From: Candidatus Latescibacterota bacterium
GTDB taxonomy: Bacteria > Krumholzibacteriota > Krumholzibacteriia > Krumholzibacteriales > Krumholzibacteriaceae
Assembly (NCBI GenBank): GCA_019038625.1
Contig: JAHOYU010000031.1
Span: 1-55,532, forward strand
Direction: 5' to 3'
DNA length: 55,532 nucleotides
Positions 13,101 through 25,544 of this stretch are shown one piece after another; the stretch's first letter is position 1, and each line of letters begins with the position of its first letter. Position numbers and translations under genes: made by a program. The notes under the pieces were generated by a model. The model was not told the origin of the DNA and searched no databases. It was given only the letters and a program-made list of their open reading frames with translations.

Positions 13101-15041
13101 ATGATGTCAATCGTAATGGTATGGAATAAATACAAATTATCTTCGATCAAGCTCCAATCGGCTTGTTTGATGGTCATCGCGCTGGTTGTACTCTCCGTAC
13201 CTCTTTCTGCAGATGATTTCGGAGCAGATCTTCCCTCTGTAGAAAAAATCATCATTCTCGGAAACAAGTCATTCGAAGACAAGGTTTTGAAAAAAAGGAT
13301 GAGGACCAGGGAATCGGGGTTTTTCAGTTTCTTTAGAAAACCGTCTTTCAGGAGAGATTTTTTAAGACGAGACATTGAGGCTGTCAGGACCTTTTATCAC
13401 ATTAATGGTTTCTTTGATGCGTCGGTGTCGATTGAGTCGGTCGAAAGGGATGAAAGTAACAATAGCGTATCGATCAAGATAATGATAAACGAGGGTCCAC
13501 AGACAATGATACGTCACCTGTCGCTGAGCCGGAATTCGTTGATTGAAGATAAAGAATTACGAAAAGGCCTGAGATTGACAGAAGACAAGCCGTACAATCC
13601 GATCCTGGTCAACGTAGATAAGTATACGATTTTCAGTAAATATTTCGAAAGAGGGTATCTGGGAGCCATGGTCTCATGCGAAACTGTCGTAGATTCCACA
13701 CGAGTCGACATATCATGGAAGATGGATCCGGGAAATCCGATCAAGATCAAAGATATTCATATTTCTGGTAATAGTTCCGTGGTAGAAAGGCTGATTAGGC
13801 GAGAACTCCGGGTCCGAAGCGGAGAATATTTCAACCTTGCAAAAATCGTAGAGAGCAAACAAAACCTGTACGATACCGGTTGTTTTACATCGGTGGAAGT
13901 AGAGCCCAGAGCACTCGATATTGAGAGGGGGAGTGTTGATCTGCACCTCCAGGTCCGTGAACGGAAGATGGGGTATGTAGAGACCGGACTTGGTGTGGGG
14001 AATGTCCATGCTAACAGAGTTTTTGCGGAGTGGGGTCAGAGAAATGTGCTGGGCAGAGGGTATGCTTTGAATATCAAAAGCGAATTCGCTTTCAGTTTGT
14101 TCCGTGAAGGTGATTACTCGCTAGACAAGATGGATCTCGAGAATAAATTCGAGAGGCATGAGGGAGAGCTGGTCTTTCCCCATATTTTTTCCACCTGGAA
14201 CACATTTTCAATTGGAGCCTTTTACGAACGCGATGCTACGGTGGAACCGATCGTTGTGGAGGCGGTCAGTTTCAATGGGACGGTTTCCAGAAGGTTTTCA
14301 CGCCACACTTCCTTTCTGCTCGGATATTTTTATGAGAAAGTGCGTAGAGAGGAGGTCCTGGATGAAAAGGAAAAATCCAGACGTCGCTCTATCGATGCCA
14401 CATTCAGGAGAGATACGCGAGATTTCTATTTCAATCCGAAGCATGGACATTATATCGCTTTTGAAAACAGAATGGCAGGTGGGATCCTGGGGGGCGAAGA
14501 TAATTACTATTCTATAATTCCGTCTTATCAGGAGTATCGGACGATAGGTGAGAGTACAATTCTCGCGTACAGGATAAGAGCCGGGTATGCCAGGGCTTTT
14601 GGGGACAGCAAGGAAACGGGGTTGCCTGTGGAAAGTAGATTTTTCCTTGGTGGAGGCAACTCGGTGCGTGGATATGAGGAAAACTCTCTGGGACCTGTCG
14701 GCAGCACTGGAGAATCCAAGGGCGGGAATGTGATGATACTGACCAACCTGGAACTGAGATTCCCTGTTCCTTATATCTCGAAATTCAATTTTGGTGGTGC
14801 TGCTTTTATAGATGCAGGTAATTCATGGGATGGACTTGAACAGATCTCACTGGACGACTTCAGCCTGGTCCGTGAAAAGACCGAAGTCATGCCCGATGAT
14901 TTCAGGGTGAGTGTGGGATTTGGAATTAGATATTACACTCCTGTAGGACCGATCAGGATAGACCTGGGATTCCCGCTGGTAAGGTCGGCAGATATGGATT
15001 TTGATTACCGGGTTCATATGAGCCTGGGGCAGATATTCTGA
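13101..15041 (+). CDS. Omp85-family outer-membrane assembly protein (BamA/TamA type, three POTRA domains)
   Basis: Omp85 proteins insert or assemble beta-barrels in the outer membrane. A signal peptide ends near LSADD (residues 33-37, counting from 13101). About three POTRA repeats follow at roughly 45-127, 128-208 and 210-290, and then a C-terminal 16-strand-type barrel with the lid-loop motif VRGYE (522-526) and a terminal Phe. With 646 residues and three POTRAs it is TamA-like in size, since BamA usually has five POTRAs and about 800 residues. Its location behind cdsA-dxr-rseP is the classical bamA site, whereas the following tamB-like gene suggests TamA. The ATG at 13116 is an alternative start; neither has a clear ribosome-binding site. 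Confidence 0.88.
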   Translation: MMSIVMVWNKYKLSSIKLQSACLMVIALVVLSVPLSADDFGADLPSVEKIIILGNKSFEDKVLKKRMRTRESGFFSFFRKPSFRRDFLRRDIEAVRTFYHINGFFDASVSIESVERDESNNSVSIKIMINEGPQTMIRHLSLSRNSLIEDKELRKGLRLTEDKPYNPILVNVDKYTIFSKYFERGYLGAMVSCETVVDSTRVDISWKMDPGNPIKIKDIHISGNSSVVERLIRRELRVRSGEYFNLAKIVESKQNLYDTGCFTSVEVEPRALDIERGSVDLHLQVRERKMGYVETGLGVGNVHANRVFAEWGQRNVLGRGYALNIKSEFAFSLFREGDYSLDKMDLENKFERHEGELVFPHIFSTWNTFSIGAFYERDATVEPIVVEAVSFNGTVSRRFSRHTSFLLGYFYEKVRREEVLDEKEKSRRRSIDATFRRDTRDFYFNPKHGHYIAFENRMAGGILGGEDNYYSIIPSYQEYRTIGESTILAYRIRAGYARAFGDSKETGLPVESRFFLGGGNSVRGYEENSLGPVGSTGESKGGNVMILTNLELRFPVPYISKFNFGGAAFIDAGNSWDGLEQISLDDFSLVREKTEVMPDDFRVSVGFGIRYYTPVGPIRIDLGFPLVRSADMDFDYRVHMSLGQIF

Positions 15042-15056: not shown

Positions 15057-18000
15057 TTGGTAAAAAGAATACTTAAATCAAAAATCACTTCCTGGATATC
15101 GCTGATAATAGCTTTGTCAATGACAGCGATTATTGTTCTTTTGTTGATATTTCGCACCGATTTCTTTGCCCTCAGAGCAAGTCAGATGCTCACAAAGTAC
15201 TTTTTTGCAGGCACCAGTTTTTCTCTTCATATTGATCGTCTTTCCGGAAATCCTCTGAAGAATGTTACCTTTGATGGGCTGTATGTAAGGTTTAACGGGG
15301 CTGACTATTCGTATGATGTAGTCCGAATAGAGAGATTCCAGTGTGAATATGAGCTGAATACGATGTTCAGCATGAATCCAGTAATCAAGACTATCATCTT
15401 CGAAAAGCCGCATATATGGATAAAACCGGACACTTCTGGAATCAACATATTTCCGCACTCCCGGGGTGGCAGGACCGGCACTAACCCTTCTTTTGAAATC
15501 CGCAGATTTGTTATAAGAGAGGGACAGTTTATATATCAGGGGCCGAAGATGGCCGATGCGGTCAGGAGAATCGATTTGGACGGTCGCCTTACTTCTGATA
15601 GCGACGGTTTGAAGATCAATATAGAAACCGGTAGCGGAGAAGATATCAGAAGAATGCTGTATTTCAGGAATATTAATGGAAGCGTGCAATGGAGTAACGA
15701 TGATGGTGACCCGGATCGAGGTAGTGGGGGGATTCTGCGGCTTGAAGATCTTTTTCTCGAACTCGATGAATCCACAATGATAGTCAATGGCACAGTTGAT
15801 CCGGATTCGATGTTTTTCGATCTGAATGTAGCGGCAGAACCTCTGGAAGTCGAAGAGATAACCAGAGCTCTCGGGATACAGACGACACAATATGGAGAAC
15901 TGCAGGGTGCGCTGGCTGTAAGAGGAGTACCAGGAACCCTCGATATCAGAGGTATGGTCAACGGTATTTTCTCGGGGTACGCACTGGAATCATTCCGGAT
16001 CGATATGTCATGGAAGTCTCCTGTCCTTCACATGAACAGGGGCTGGGGTAGATTTAATGGTTCGGAGATCGATGGAACAGGTGAAATGATCCTTGGAGAT
16101 GATAGCTCCGTATCCCTACAGCTTGATGTAAAAGAACTCGATCTTTCCGCAGGGTTTGTCAGGGGAGCGAATTTGCCGGAGACTATGCTGAATGGATCGA
16201 TAAGCATGGATTACGGTCCCGCTCCGGCCGGATTGCGGTTCGATCTCGACCTTCAGGAGGGTCATTTCAGGGAGATCCCCTTTGATAGCGGCAAAATCAT
16301 AGGTGGGTTTATAGCGGATACCATAACATTCCATTCCATCATCCTCGAATCTCCCACACACGATATAAGGTCGGATGGCTTGATTACGACAAGCGGTGGA
16401 ATGAGGTTCTATTTTGACCTGAACGCTGCCAGTCAGGATTCACTCTTTCCGTATTTCGGAATTGAAGAGTACAGGGCAGATGTGTCGTTGAACGGGATCT
16501 GGGAAGGGAATCTGAAAGAGTGGGATCTAATAGCGAATGGAGAGTTTTCGGATCTTGAATACAGATTCACTTCTGTGTCGGAAGGCGATATCAAATTGAT
16601 CCTGAGGAGAGGAGAATCCAGCAAATTCCTCATGGAGATGGAAGGAGACACATGTTACATAGGACCGATCCCTTTCGATGACGTGGTGCTGTCTCTGGAA
16701 TATATGAACGGAACCACCGATATCAAGAAGCTGTTACTTTCTCGACCTGGATTCTCTGGTGAAGCAAGTGTTTCGGTCCATTCTGATGACGGGATAGTGT
16801 CCATTCTTGTGCAAAATGCCGAAATCACCGCTATGGGAGAGGATTGGATGAGTGGAGGAGACCCGGGAATCACTCTGGAAAGCGGTAAAATCGATTTTTA
16901 TGACATGCAACTGCATTCAAAGATGGGGGCACTCTATCTTGACGGCAATTATGATAGCAAGGAAAGGATGATAGATGGTGTCTTGCGTTTCGAGAGACTC
17001 GGATTGTCACTTATCGAGGAGACGGGGATAGTGTCATTTCCTCTCAGGGGAAGAAGCCTGGGCAGTTTGAGTCTGAGTGGATCCATTGATGATCCCTCCC
17101 TTTTGATAGATTTTTCAACTGGCCCGGCGGTCGTTGACTCAATAGACATAGACGGTATCAGACTCACGGCAGAATATTCGGATGGCAAGACAGCCATTGA
17201 TACAATGAGTGTTGTTTCTCCGGGAGGAAACCTGTTTCTTTCGGGTTCTCTGTCAGGGTTGAGATACGTTGAGGCTTTTAGAGGCAGTGGCAGCGGATTG
17301 GACGAACTGGTCCTGGACATACAGACCGAATGTGACAAGCTGGAGATGGAACCTTTTCTCCGGATGACAGACAGATCATTTTTTGACGGTGGAAAGTTTA
17401 CCGGTACTATCTCGGTTAGGGATTCACTGGTACATCCATCGATAAATATGGAAGGAACAATAGATAGTCTGGCTTCAGATCCGATCACTCTGTACGGTGT
17501 CCGTCTCGACGCGTCTGTGGACAAGGAAGGGTTCCTGATGGAAGGGAGCCTTCTCTGCCCTGGAGGAAAAGAAGGTTTATTCAATGGGAAGATACCAGTC
17601 GAGGAATCGGACTGGTTCTATTCCCCTGCCGGGAACGAACCGCTATATCTCGAACTGAATATGGAGGAGAGTGATCTTGCAGATTTTCCAGAAATGACTG
17701 AGGTGGTCGCTGAAGCAGATGGCAGGTATTCGGTCGGACTCAGGATAGACGGGACTTTCAATGACCCGAAACTCCATGGAGAACTTAACCTTTTTGACGG
17801 TTCTTTCCGATTTTCCGGGATGGAAGAAAGATTCAGGGATGTCAACGCAAAAGTGATACTGGAAGATACACTTATAACCATATCATCGCTCGCTGGCCGC
17901 GAGGGGCGCGATGGTACATTCGATTGCGGAGGAACGATCATCCTTGATGGATGGAGACCATCCAGATACGACCTGACAGCCCATCTGGATAAATTTCTCC

Positions 18001-18953
18001 TGGCAAGTATCACTGACATAATGGCGATTGTTTCAGGAGACCTGAAAGTAGGTAATCTGGAACATGAGGGGCGCCTTGTCCCATCTATTACGGGGATGCT
18101 GGATGTCAACAGGGCGGAGGTCTATTTCGACATAGGAGAATTCTCATCGACAAGCACAAAAGGGACAATGGAGGCCCCCAGCTGGTTTGCGGAAATTGAA
18201 CTGGAAGCAAGAGGGAATACATGGATAAAGACTCCTGACGCAAATGTCGAGATGCAGGGGAATGTTACCATCCACCACGATCGCAGAGGGACATATCTCA
18301 GAGGTAAACTGAATCTGATCAGGGGTTGGTATAATGTGTACAATAACAAGTTTCGTGTAAAAGCAGGAAAACTTGAATTCGTTCATGCCGAGAGCATGAG
18401 GCCGATAGTAGATATTGAGGCAGAGACTGTCGATCCGGAAGGCAGAAAGATATACCTGATGCTTTCCTGGCACCAGGATGACATAGAGCCGAGACTTTCA
18501 CTCTATCATGAGGATCCAGGTTATAGTGAGACCGATATCTGGAAGATGCTTGGGGGAGGCGTTGTCGGAGCGGAGGACGGAGCAGGTTGGGACGCATTGA
18601 ACACTGCGCAGAGCCTGGCGGCAAACTATATTGAAAAAATGCTCAATTCCCAGATGGAGGGAATCACCATAGAACTTGAGACTTCAGGTGGTTCCGATGG
18701 AGTATCATCGGGATTCGAGCCTAATCAGACAGTAGTGGCGATAGGTAAGTACCTGTCGGAAGGACTCTATGTAAAGTACAAACAGGGATTGTCGATTTCC
18801 ACGGCCAGACATTTTGAAGTTGAATACAGATTGAGCCGTTTGTTTCAGATACGTTCCGAGATCATCATGTATTCCGAAAAGGTGATTCAGGGAGGCAGCA
18901 AGAGAAGTGGAGATGAATACAACGTCGACCTTAAGATCAGATGGGAGTTCTAA
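15057..18953 (+). CDS. TamB-like translocation and assembly module protein (DUF490 C-terminal domain)
   Basis: TamB-type proteins are long periplasmic beta-taco proteins anchored in the inner membrane. They work with an Omp85 partner in barrel assembly and are also proposed as lipid-transfer bridges (AsmA-like family). The 1298-residue product has one N-terminal membrane anchor (about 13-33), then more than a thousand residues of repetitive beta-strand sequence, and the TamB C-terminal domain with RGKLNLIRGWYNVYNNKF, EFVHAESMRPIVDIEA and a YSETDIWKMLGGG segment. The start is TTG at 15057 with GGGAG at 8 nt. It lies 15 nt after the Omp85 gene, so the two are surely one transcript and probably one complex. 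Confidence 0.9.
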   Translation: MVKRILKSKITSWISLIIALSMTAIIVLLLIFRTDFFALRASQMLTKYFFAGTSFSLHIDRLSGNPLKNVTFDGLYVRFNGADYSYDVVRIERFQCEYELNTMFSMNPVIKTIIFEKPHIWIKPDTSGINIFPHSRGGRTGTNPSFEIRRFVIREGQFIYQGPKMADAVRRIDLDGRLTSDSDGLKINIETGSGEDIRRMLYFRNINGSVQWSNDDGDPDRGSGGILRLEDLFLELDESTMIVNGTVDPDSMFFDLNVAAEPLEVEEITRALGIQTTQYGELQGALAVRGVPGTLDIRGMVNGIFSGYALESFRIDMSWKSPVLHMNRGWGRFNGSEIDGTGEMILGDDSSVSLQLDVKELDLSAGFVRGANLPETMLNGSISMDYGPAPAGLRFDLDLQEGHFREIPFDSGKIIGGFIADTITFHSIILESPTHDIRSDGLITTSGGMRFYFDLNAASQDSLFPYFGIEEYRADVSLNGIWEGNLKEWDLIANGEFSDLEYRFTSVSEGDIKLILRRGESSKFLMEMEGDTCYIGPIPFDDVVLSLEYMNGTTDIKKLLLSRPGFSGEASVSVHSDDGIVSILVQNAEITAMGEDWMSGGDPGITLESGKIDFYDMQLHSKMGALYLDGNYDSKERMIDGVLRFERLGLSLIEETGIVSFPLRGRSLGSLSLSGSIDDPSLLIDFSTGPAVVDSIDIDGIRLTAEYSDGKTAIDTMSVVSPGGNLFLSGSLSGLRYVEAFRGSGSGLDELVLDIQTECDKLEMEPFLRMTDRSFFDGGKFTGTISVRDSLVHPSINMEGTIDSLASDPITLYGVRLDASVDKEGFLMEGSLLCPGGKEGLFNGKIPVEESDWFYSPAGNEPLYLELNMEESDLADFPEMTEVVAEADGRYSVGLRIDGTFNDPKLHGELNLFDGSFRFSGMEERFRDVNAKVILEDTLITISSLAGREGRDGTFDCGGTIILDGWRPSRYDLTAHLDKFLLASITDIMAIVSGDLKVGNLEHEGRLVPSITGMLDVNRAEVYFDIGEFSSTSTKGTMEAPSWFAEIELEARGNTWIKTPDANVEMQGNVTIHHDRRGTYLRGKLNLIRGWYNVYNNKFRVKAGKLEFVHAESMRPIVDIEAETVDPEGRKIYLMLSWHQDDIEPRLSLYHEDPGYSETDIWKMLGGGVVGAEDGAGWDALNTAQSLAANYIEKMLNSQMEGITIELETSGGSDGVSSGFEPNQTVVAIGKYLSEGLYVKYKQGLSISTARHFEVEYRLSRLFQIRSEIIMYSEKVIQGGSKRSGDEYNVDLKIRWEF

Positions 18954-19034
18954 ATGAGGTTTTTACTTGAAGAAGAACAGTAGAAACGCAATCTTTAGTA
19001 TAGCCCTCATGACGAAACCCGGAGGATGATGACG

Positions 19035-22000
19035 ATGAAAGGTGGGTCATATTTGAAGCGGACAGTAATCTTACTGCTTGTTCTGGCCGGTACTCTCTCC
19101 TTTCCCACTGGTAGTCGTTCACAGGTATGGTGGTTCGGCAAGAACAAAGTGCAATATAAGGATTTTCGCTGGAGCATCCTGACAACGCCACATTTTGATA
19201 TTCATTTCAACGAAGGATACAGGGATCTCGCCGCGCGGACGGCAGTAATCCTCGAATACGGTTATGGCAAACTATCGAGTGATTTTGATCACCAGCTTAA
19301 ATGGCGTATTCCTGTAATAATATATGGGAGTCATACCGATTTTCAGCAGACCAACACGACATGGCAGCTGCTTCCCGAAGGAGTCCAGGCTTTTGCAGAA
19401 CCGAGCAGAAGAAGGATGGTCCTGCATTTCAGCGGATCAAATGTTGATTTCAGCCATACTGCGATCCATGAGCTGGTGCACATATTCCAGTTTGATATCA
19501 TATACGGCAATCTTCTGAGATCCGTATTTTCCCGCAATCTGCTGTTCAGGATCCCACTGTGGTTTGCCGAGGGAATGGCTGAATATTATTCGATAGGCGG
19601 CATGGACGATGAGTGTGAGATGTTCATGCGGGATGGCACGATCTTCGACTATCTCCCCTTTGATCTGGCCTACGCCGGTGGATATATGAATTATAAGGCG
19701 GGACAGTCTGCAATAGACTATATCAGCAGGACGTACGGCAATGAAAAGGTCGTCGAGCTGATGGACCAACTCAGATATCAGAGGTCACTCGAGATCGCTC
19801 TTCAGAACTCGATCGGGTTGACTACGCATGAACTGACGCGAGACTGGAAAAAGGACCTCAGAAGAAGATACTGGCCGGTATATGCCGGCAAGAAGGAACC
19901 CGATTTCTTCGGCAGGCAGCTCACCGACCATATAAAGAAACATCACTATATGAACTCGAAACCTGTTTTCTCGCCCGATGGAAGGGATATTGTCTTTTAT
20001 TCCGACAGAGGTGGACTCCAGGGTATCTACCTTTTGAATTCCCTTACCGGGGAGGTGACAGGCAAGCTTCTTTCCAGCTCTATGTCAAGCGAGTTCGAGT
20101 ATATACGGACTTTGAAATCGAGCCTGTCGTGGAGCCCGGACGGGAAAAGTATCGTTTTTGTGGCCAAGTCCGATGGGGAGGACAAGCTTTTCATAATGGA
20201 GGTTCCCGGCGGAGAAATACTTGAGAAGATTGAACTGCCTCTTGATTTCTTTTTCAATCCTGCCTGGTCACCAACGGGAGAATCGATCGCGCTTGCCGGG
20301 ACAATAAACGGCCAGACAGACATATATGTCTATAACACACGGAAACAATCACTGTTCAGGGTCACAGACGATCTGGAAGACGAAAAATATCTATCCTGGT
20401 TTCCAGGAGGACGCAGGATAGCGTACACAAGATTTCCACAGGTTGCCATGCAACATGCTTTTGATTATGGTGATGACGGGAATCCAAGACTTGCGGGTGT
20501 AGATTTTACAGATATGAGGAATCTCCTTGAGGTGACTGGTGATATCTGGAGCATAGATCTCGATAGCGGTGAAAAAGAACTCCTGATAGCGACACCGGGT
20601 AACGATGAGTCACCACTTATCATTTCTGACGGGAAAGAAATAATATTCACATCCGATGAGACCGGAGTCAGCAACCTCTACAGGGGCAGCCTGGAAGTAG
20701 GCAGCTACTACAGGTTCACTGACGTTCCGGGGGGCATCTTCAATCCGTCATACTCCAGTACTGGAGATAACCTTGTTTATTCAGGGTTCAACATGGCTGG
20801 CTACGATTTGTACATAATGGACAGTTTTAGCGATAAAGCTGCTGTTTCCTACTCTACTGGAAGTCCCCTGATGGCGGAATCCAGCGCGGAATGGCCCTCG
20901 TTCGGAATGATACCATCTGGCGAACTGATGATTCAGGAACCTGGCTTCGATGTGGAGAGTGGTCTTGATGGTGGAAGTGTTGCCGCTCTTGATCCTGGTG
21001 GGGAGGATGCTCTGGAGATCTCGGGCTCTGTCAGGGTGGAAAGTATCGGAGGCAGTCCGACAGGAGGGAAACTTCCAACGATGAAGTGGAAGAACCCTCC
21101 GGCGACTCCGGATGTAGTGATCGATGAGGATTCGAACAAAGATGTGGATCCCGATTCTCTAGAGGCGATACGAGATGAGTTTCGCGAGAAAATCGGGACG
21201 ATCAAGCCCTACAGTGTCAAATTTTCTCCCGATTATATCGGTAACGGAATGGGAGTGTTTTTTTCTACAGGTTACGGGTTTGGGCTTGCAAACCAGATAG
21301 CATTCAGCGATCTCCTCGGAGACCATCACCTCTTTCTGGCATTCAACCTTTTTGGATCGATCGAGGATAGCGACCTTATGCTCTCCTATTATTATGTTAA
21401 GAAACGCATTGATTATTCGGTTGGCGTATTCCAGTTTAAAAACTACCTCAATTCAAGATTTTCCTCGGTCGGCGAAGCGTTCACTGATTATCGTTTCTTC
21501 TCTGAAAGAAATTACGGGATCTTCGGTAATGCCAGCTTTCCATTTTCTACCTTCACCAGGGCGGAACTGGAAGTCCAGGCATTTATCAGCGAAAGAGAGT
21601 TCCTGACCTGGGACAATAGTGAAAGTTACCAGGGATATTATATTCCCCTGGCAGGTGAAGTATCGACCAGAAGACTGTTACAGCCCTCGATATCCCTGGT
21701 CCATGATTCGGCATATTTTGGTTCATACGGTCCTGTGATCGGTTCCAGATGGATGCTGAGTTTTTCCAGGGCACTCTCATTCTCCGGTGATGATGTTTCC
21801 AGGACGACATTATTCGGCGACTATAGAAAATATCAGCCCCTATGGTACAGGAACTACCTCGCGTTCAGAGCAATTGGGTCTATCAGTGACGGGCTGGATA
21901 AAAGATATTTCTTTCTCGGAGGCCCCCTGACGATGCGAGGATACGATTATCTTCAGTTCCAGGGGCCCCGGATGATGCTTTTTAATCTCGAATACCGTTA

Positions 22001-22295
22001 TCCGCTGGTGGATGCTCTGATATTCGGTTGGCCTGGCAGGTGGGGATTTACCAATATCGGTGGGACATTCTTCTTTGATACGGGGAGTGTATGGGGTGAA
22101 GATACCTTTATTGAGCCTCTGCCCGAAGGGGTCAATCCACGGGTGGTCAACGGACTCAAATTCTACAGCGACTTCGGGATGGGATTCTATATGAGGTTCG
22201 GGTTCCTTATTCTCAATTTCCAGCTTGCCTGGCCGACGGATTTTGAATACACTGGCGATTCTGTATTTCACTTCTATCTGGGTTCTCAGTTCTGA
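19035..22295 (+). CDS. Zinc-metallopeptidase / PD40 propeller / Omp85-like barrel fusion protein
   Basis: This appears to be a large outer-membrane protein with three parts. After a signal peptide (about 1-30) comes a gluzincin (peptidase MA-like) domain with HELVH at 145-149 and the downstream ligand motif WFAEGMAEYY at 176-185. Residues of about 295-620 hold six PD40/TolB-type propeller blades with repeated SPDG-like turns. A Ser/Gly-rich, acidic linker follows. Residues of about 722-1086 form a barrel of the bacterial surface antigen (Omp85) type with TMRGY near 965 and a terminal Phe. ATGs at 19026 and 19029 are possible, but GGAGG (19021-19025) is best spaced for 19035. It follows tamB by 81 nt. 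The substrate is unknown. Confidence 0.82.
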   Translation: MKGGSYLKRTVILLLVLAGTLSFPTGSRSQVWWFGKNKVQYKDFRWSILTTPHFDIHFNEGYRDLAARTAVILEYGYGKLSSDFDHQLKWRIPVIIYGSHTDFQQTNTTWQLLPEGVQAFAEPSRRRMVLHFSGSNVDFSHTAIHELVHIFQFDIIYGNLLRSVFSRNLLFRIPLWFAEGMAEYYSIGGMDDECEMFMRDGTIFDYLPFDLAYAGGYMNYKAGQSAIDYISRTYGNEKVVELMDQLRYQRSLEIALQNSIGLTTHELTRDWKKDLRRRYWPVYAGKKEPDFFGRQLTDHIKKHHYMNSKPVFSPDGRDIVFYSDRGGLQGIYLLNSLTGEVTGKLLSSSMSSEFEYIRTLKSSLSWSPDGKSIVFVAKSDGEDKLFIMEVPGGEILEKIELPLDFFFNPAWSPTGESIALAGTINGQTDIYVYNTRKQSLFRVTDDLEDEKYLSWFPGGRRIAYTRFPQVAMQHAFDYGDDGNPRLAGVDFTDMRNLLEVTGDIWSIDLDSGEKELLIATPGNDESPLIISDGKEIIFTSDETGVSNLYRGSLEVGSYYRFTDVPGGIFNPSYSSTGDNLVYSGFNMAGYDLYIMDSFSDKAAVSYSTGSPLMAESSAEWPSFGMIPSGELMIQEPGFDVESGLDGGSVAALDPGGEDALEISGSVRVESIGGSPTGGKLPTMKWKNPPATPDVVIDEDSNKDVDPDSLEAIRDEFREKIGTIKPYSVKFSPDYIGNGMGVFFSTGYGFGLANQIAFSDLLGDHHLFLAFNLFGSIEDSDLMLSYYYVKKRIDYSVGVFQFKNYLNSRFSSVGEAFTDYRFFSERNYGIFGNASFPFSTFTRAELEVQAFISEREFLTWDNSESYQGYYIPLAGEVSTRRLLQPSISLVHDSAYFGSYGPVIGSRWMLSFSRALSFSGDDVSRTTLFGDYRKYQPLWYRNYLAFRAIGSISDGLDKRYFFLGGPLTMRGYDYLQFQGPRMMLFNLEYRYPLVDALIFGWPGRWGFTNIGGTFFFDTGSVWGEDTFIEPLPEGVNPRVVNGLKFYSDFGMGFYMRFGFLILNFQLAWPTDFEYTGDSVFHFYLGSQF

Positions 22296-24506: not shown

Positions 24507-25544
24507 TCACCTTCCGGGTCTGAGTCCCTCGATGAACGATGCATCCATCCAATAGATGGAAGCCAGTATTTCTCCAGGTTCATTATGGATGCGAAGCATC
24601 AGGTCCCGGGTGATCCTGCCATTTGGGAATACCATATCCTCACTCATTCTTCCCGACATGAAGAAGAAATATTTACCGTCTGGAGACAGATATGGTGAAT
24701 GCTCACTGCCGTATTCGGAGTTTACCGGGACTCCCATGTTTATCGGTTCACTCCATGTGTCGTCGGTGTTTCTGAAACAGATATAGTAGTCGTCTCCACC
24801 TAGGCAATCCTCACGTCCCCCGGTCGGCACTATGATATAACTTTCATCCGGAGCGATAAAGGCGTTGTATTGCTGATTCGTGGAATTTACCTGTTCTGGA
24901 AGTTTTTCGGGCTCGGTATATCCGCCATCGATCAGTCGTGACCGGAAGATATAGCTTGATCGTCCAACGGTCCGGGTGAAATAGAAAGTGCCGTCCCTCG
25001 TGATAGAAGGAAAGAACTCCGCGGCATCAGTGTTTACAGGGCCACCGATATTATACGCGTCCGACCAGCCGTCTTCTGTTCTGTCAACTGCCCAGATATC
25101 CTGGTTGGCTGGTTTTCCGTTGGCTGTATCAGGTCTGTTTGAAAGGAATAGAAGTTGTTTGCCGTCTGGAGTGATAAATGGTTCAGCATCCATGTAGTCG
25201 ATATTACCGCAGAATGAAGCGACCTCGGGACTGGTCCATACACCATCGATCCTTTTAGTGTGCAGGATCTGTGTGATATTGTATCGTCCGACTACGCTCG
25301 TAAAAAAGATCTCGTCACCTTCAGGGGTCATTGCGACATCCCTCGTGAACAGACAGGTGGAGATAAGTCCTGGAGCAAACAGTTCAGGTTCTTTCCCTGG
25401 AGGAATCTGTCCGAAATAGTCGCCGGTCAGCACGGGGAATGTGTCACCGGACGAGGAATCGTCCCTGGTGGCACAACCTGAATGGAAAAGAAAAGAAAGG
25501 GCCATGGCTATGATGAAAAACCGGAAACATCGTGATATCGACAT
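24507..25544 (-). CDS. PD40 (TolB-like) beta-propeller lipoprotein
   Basis: The product is a predicted lipoprotein with N-terminal hydrophobic segment and lipobox FHSGC (Cys about 24). The rest is a beta-propeller of WD40-like PD40 repeats with recurring turns such as MTPEGDEIFFTS, ITPDGKQLLFLSNR, ITRDGTFYFTR, IAPDESYIIVPT and LSPDGKYFFFMSGR. Five to six blades are visible over 345 residues. Such propellers serve as binding platforms in the periplasm or at the outer membrane, and no catalytic residues can be named. It is transcribed divergently from gatC with its own promoter at 25600-25628. Confidence 0.8.
   Translation of the reverse strand: MSISRCFRFFIIAMALSFLFHSGCATRDDSSSGDTFPVLTGDYFGQIPPGKEPELFAPGLISTCLFTRDVAMTPEGDEIFFTSVVGRYNITQILHTKRIDGVWTSPEVASFCGNIDYMDAEPFITPDGKQLLFLSNRPDTANGKPANQDIWAVDRTEDGWSDAYNIGGPVNTDAAEFFPSITRDGTFYFTRTVGRSSYIFRSRLIDGGYTEPEKLPEQVNSTNQQYNAFIAPDESYIIVPTGGREDCLGGDDYYICFRNTDDTWSEPINMGVPVNSEYGSEHSPYLSPDGKYFFFMSGRMSEDMVFPNGRITRDLMLRIHNEPGEILASIYWMDASFIEGLRPGR

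Follow-up and report, generated by a model that had tools for sequence, protein, structure and literature searches.

Among the ten Omp85/TpsB subfamilies named in 2014 is WD40-Omp85, which Heinz and Lithgow proposed to be a BamA-BamB-like fusion (PMC4104836); the main text of their survey recognises non-POTRA subfamilies and describes WD40-Omp85 as one of them, with an N-terminal propeller most like TolB and an Omp85 barrel. Also named there is 'Metallo', called metalloprotease-Omp85, which the main text defines by PF00149 and without a described propeller. Both subfamilies were still listed as not well characterised in 2024 (PMC11116518). In the patatin-Omp85 protein PlpD, an Omp85 relative, a lipase domain precedes a 16-strand Omp85 barrel; PlpD has POTRA and no propeller (PMC11116518). 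The periplasmic BepA (PMC8423444) sets the precedent of a zinc peptidase that takes part at BAM in barrel assembly; it is a soluble, separate protein of peptidase family M48 with neither barrel nor propeller. TamA and TamL have an Omp85 barrel, POTRA domains and no enzyme domain, and TolB has neither peptidase nor barrel.

The protein described here, which we call MPO (metallopeptidase-propeller-Omp85), is encoded in a stretch of 55,532 nucleotides from a Candidatus Latescibacterota bacterium (contig JAHOYU010000031.1; hereafter the window). Like WD40-Omp85, it has a TolB-like propeller ahead of its Omp85 barrel, and the two families likely overlap; however, the main text of the 2014 survey contains neither an N-terminal gluzincin peptidase nor a tamB linkage (PMC4104836). 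As in PlpD, an enzyme domain lies N-terminal to a 16-strand barrel, but in MPO it is a peptidase. BepA is proposed as a functional analogue, and TolB provides the best structural and sequence match of the propeller. The barrel is shared with TamA, which is encoded beside tamB in the window. WD40-Omp85 is thus already known as a named subfamily, and the tamB linkage is what is new here. A literature search, with most subscription journals outside it, led to the 2014 survey and papers citing it but to no account of the peptidase-propeller-Omp85 architecture or of its linkage to tamB. The relevant features of the window are:

13101-15041, forward strand: TamA-like protein with three POTRA domains and an Omp85 barrel (Pfam, NCBIfam).
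15057-18953, forward strand: TamB, the sole one found in the genome (PF04357, E 1e-33).
19021-19025, forward strand: Shine-Dalgarno sequence GGAGG for MPO (sequence read).
19035-22295, forward strand: MPO gene, 1086 amino acids (open reading frame, Pfam, AlphaFold2 model).
19035-19124, forward strand: putative signal peptide, about residues 1-30, without a lipobox Cys (sequence; model helix 4-21).
19134-19157, forward strand: FGKNKVQY (residues 34-41), a motif that hardly varies within the MPO family (alignments of relatives).
19170-19940, forward strand: gluzincin-type peptidase domain, residues 46-302 (PF13485; fold matches to M1 peptidases and collagenase M9).
19467-19481, forward strand: HELVH, residues 145-149, in which H145 and H149 are presumed to bind zinc and E146 to be catalytic (conservation).
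19560-19589, forward strand: WFAEGMAEYY, residues 176-185, containing E179, presumed to be the third zinc ligand, and the conserved E183 (conservation).
19953-20852, forward strand: TolB-like propeller of six blades, residues 307-606 (PD40; TolB match).
20856-21149, forward strand: linker, mostly disordered (pLDDT <50 at 608-689), without a POTRA match.
21252-22292, forward strand: 16-strand Omp85 barrel, residues 740-1086 (model, Foldseek, relatives, hhalign, genome PF01103 search).
21930-21944, forward strand: TMRGY, residues 966-970, a motif of the Omp85 loop-6 type (model, alignment).

MPO reads as one open frame of 1086 codons plus stop, and we place its start at the ATG at 19035 because the GGAGG sits 9 nt upstream. 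The preliminary description of this DNA had reported HELVH, WFAEGMAEYY, a propeller and a barrel within a single uninterrupted frame, and all are indeed found there. Since AlphaFold2, Foldseek, Pfam and profile-profile comparison agree, the architecture of peptidase, propeller and Omp85 barrel is near certain. It also recurs in the survey of domain order across genomes that had been suggested: peptidase and barrel occur together in 163 frames, the exceptions being truncated stretches or TamA proteins. A chance fusion or a frameshift artefact is ruled out by these many full-length, single-frame relatives.

In the MPO chain, Pfam places Peptidase_MA_2 over residues 79-274 (E 4.5e-9, above the curated cut-off), and the same domain is found in 53/53 relatives. 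The signature of the gluzincins (Peptidase MA clan), HExxH with a downstream Glu ligand, is present; an M48 or TPR domain was not found in the Pfam search. PF00149, by contrast, is presumably a calcineurin-like metallophosphoesterase domain and not an HExxH peptidase. Modelled alone, the N-domain reached a pLDDT of 83.1, and in a fold search its best matches were the peptidase domains of clostridial and Vibrio collagenases (E 1.9e-4, TM-score by query 0.52-0.61), with M1 aminopeptidases also matching from E 3.3e-3. On these fold matches, to the M9 (collagenase) and M1 families, we assign the domain to the gluzincins; when PDB sequences were searched with a profile of it, no match was significant. 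As for the zinc ligands, whose conservation in homologues had been named as a test of the initial description, 161 of 165 N-domain matches retain all five residues H145, E146, H149, E179 and E183, and in 141 of them H149 and E179 are 30 apart. The exceptions are two relatives without the HExxH histidines (L183 and L184), one with E183S (L187) and one fragment. Judged from its intact active-site residues, the MPO peptidase is probably catalytically active. The divergent L183 and L184, both from the Bacteroidota-type sample, may be pseudopeptidases.

The six PD40-type blades counted in the preliminary description are borne out by a PD40 match above the curated cut-off (Pfam, E 9.9e-24) and by the strands between residues 307 and 595 of the AlphaFold2 model, from which we counted the blades. 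The full-chain model, built with a 53-row alignment of relatives (pLDDT 81.6, pTM 0.81), shows a helical-beta N-domain, a disordered linker at 608-689 and, as had been anticipated for the C-terminus, a barrel whose 16 strands, none shorter than 5 residues, lie between 740 and 1084, with a terminal Phe. The expected TMRGY falls between barrel strands 11 and 12, which is the place of the Omp85 loop-6 motif, and its R968 and G969 are invariant in 53 sequences. In the Foldseek search the best propeller match was TolB (E 2.5e-13), and the barrel matched BamA barrels from E 3e-10 (barrel-only entries reached a TM-score by target of about 0.6) and also TamA. In NCBIfam, the propeller matched TolB and residues 739-1086 matched BamA, both below the cut-off. 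The barrel matched PF01103 with 39.3 bits (cut-off 24) in a whole-genome search, yet hmmscan reported no such match for the chain or for its C-terminus. Because Pfam is inconsistent on the single chain, we base the Omp85 assignment on the structure, on the barrels of 37 of the 53 relatives, which match PF01103 at E <= 0.01, and on hhalign, where the profile of the 53 barrels was compared with TamA/BamA barrels (99.3% probability). Pfam found no POTRA domain in MPO.

Our survey of the distribution covered Bacteroidota-related phyla. Of 39 related genomes, 36 carry homologues; in a sample of 297 genomes from the phylum to which an Ignavibacteria locus belongs, 193 do. A pattern scan of contigs yielded at least 566 loci, and among the best 80 of them are records titled Krumholzibacteriota, Latescibacterota, Eisenbacteria, Zixibacteria, KSB1, Ignavibacteria, Marinimicrobia, Calditrichota and Bacteroidetes. 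The preliminary description mentioned neither this wide distribution nor the tamA-tamB neighbours. Conservation of FGKNKVQY nearly equals that of the active site; the motif was part of the pattern used in the contig scan, so its conservation was partly selected for there, but the 60 loci from the profile search are free of this bias. It directly follows the signal peptide and is poorly ordered in the isolated N-domain model and better ordered in the full-length one; going by the models, it might dock onto another domain or a partner.

The gene order in the window is rpsB-tsf-pyrH-frr-uppS-cdsA-dxr-rseP, followed by the TamA-like gene, tamB, MPO, pcrA and gatCAB. Here tamA, tamB, MPO and pcrA are co-directional, with gaps of 15, 81 and 45 bp. 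The gene at 13101 as the cell's BamA was ruled out: on another contig (C21) an Omp85 gene is part of the order bamA-skp-lpxD-lpxC/fabZ-lpxA, with names that we assigned by reading the translations. Across the family, 57 of 140 loci have tamB in their sampled flank (54 of them within 3.5 kb and on the same strand), where we estimate about one by chance (assuming a flank of about 16 kb, a 3.6 Mb genome and one or two tamB genes); because the loci are related, these 57 are not 57 independent events, and the linkage could reflect one inherited gene order or, as far as the tree goes, have arisen more than once. On the tree, the order tamB-MPO lies on the Krumholzibacteriota side, where the window has the arrangement tamA-tamB-MPO, and tamB-rnr-MPO is found in Bacteroidota and Ignavibacteria, in distant parts; an RNase R gene is present in the sampled flank of 51/140 loci. 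In Zixibacteria murA lies upstream of MPO. In three Eisenbacteria loci (L049, L050, L052) the order is rseP-MPO-pcrA, with MPO filling the slot of the window's tamA-tamB, which are absent there. In 8/140 loci mlaE follows MPO in the sampled flank, and 76/140 have neither tamB nor mlaE there. The features that mark membership of TAM, i.e. the POTRA of TamA/TamL and the TamB domain, are absent from MPO (Pfam), which is a neighbour of TamA and TamB. As POTRA-bearing proteins occur in all 40 genomes checked, we regard MPO as an addition to the usual assembly factors; a replacement of BamA or TamL by MPO is unsupported. Downstream of MPO, on the opposite strand, inspection by eye of the gene at 24507-25544 showed PD40-like repeats and an N-terminus resembling that of a lipoprotein.

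Omp85 barrels of known members have a periplasmic N-terminus. Since the N-terminal domains of MPO precede strand 1 of such a barrel, and since the enzyme domain of PlpD stays in the periplasm (PMC11116518), we predict by analogy that peptidase and propeller are periplasmic. The frequent position of MPO next to tamB argues for a role in outer-membrane building or quality control over one in secretion. We tentatively propose that MPO is an outer-membrane-anchored, periplasm-facing zinc metallopeptidase for clients of outer-membrane biogenesis, working alongside TAM in a BepA-like manner. The POTRA-less Omp85 barrel would anchor the chain in the outer membrane, and the TolB-like propeller and the peptidase would hang in the periplasm beside the barrel mouth. 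There the propeller would dock envelope partners or unfolded clients, and the peptidase would cut clients stalled in outer-membrane assembly, in association with TamA-TamB. MPO would act as BepA does on BAM in E. coli, but within one Omp85-type protein. This proposal presumes proteolytic activity, clients of this type and a physical link to TamB. A more far-reaching idea, which we consider doubtful, is that MPO is a third, enzymatic TAM partner that works with TamB across Bacteroidota-related phyla, a single chain serving both proteolytic quality control and either insertion into the outer membrane or the delivery of lipids.

The main rival to a peptidase for outer-membrane protein clients is a role in lipid transport, in which TamB-type bridges or transport driven by MlaEF would end at the barrel in the outer membrane, and the peptidase would regulate or process that machinery. 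The tamB and mlaE neighbours (57 and 8 of 140 loci) fit this role, as does the discussion of TamB as a phospholipid conduit (PMC11014939). However, depletion of TamL in F. johnsoniae had only a minor effect on outer-membrane lipids (PMC12045153) and many loci lack both genes; we therefore consider this explanation unlikely. Another rival is the 2014 idea for WD40-Omp85, an assembly platform resembling BamA plus BamB, in which the peptidase domain would mainly be a binding module. Propeller and Omp85 barrel are present as in the hypothesis set out in the survey's main text (PMC4104836), and HExxH is broken in two relatives, but the active site that is intact in nearly all N-domain matches favours catalysis and the propeller's top structural matches are TolB, not BamB, which makes such a platform distinctly unlikely.

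The preliminary description had offered two readings, a protein that displays or secretes its own protease and a quality-control protease on an Omp85-like barrel, and it is the latter that fits our results best. Self-display, the idea originally put forward for PlpD, would have the barrel carry the peptidase to the surface, and could draw on the patatin-Omp85-like position of the enzyme domain and on a peptidase fold resembling secreted collagenases. It is nevertheless improbable, given N-terminal domains that precede strand 1, the periplasmic enzyme domain of PlpD (PMC11116518), a folded 300-residue propeller behind the peptidase that would have to cross too, and neighbours that are conserved envelope and housekeeping genes. 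We find it very improbable that MPO is a general periplasmic peptidase for peptide scavenging with the barrel merely as an outer-membrane anchor: the M1- and collagenase-like fold would suit such an enzyme, but MPO is linked to tamB, mlaE and rseP-type envelope genes, and no peptide-uptake genes are among the recurrent neighbour clusters identified. If the periplasm-facing, BepA-like peptidase that we prefer is correct, outer-membrane biogenesis would have a protease built into a named but unstudied Omp85 branch, which occurs in about two of every three genomes of a broad Bacteroidota-type sample. MPO would then open a direct route to the policing of outer-membrane assembly in these phyla, and would itself be a concrete candidate for a TamB partner outside Proteobacteria.

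Elsewhere in the same genome there is a paralogue of MPO of 936 amino acids (L038:6953-9763), which adjoins dapF and lies away from tamB. The genome also encodes three patatin-Omp85 proteins (L123:1-2220, L124:1372-3702 and L126:1225-3471), so that several enzyme-Omp85 fusions coexist in it.
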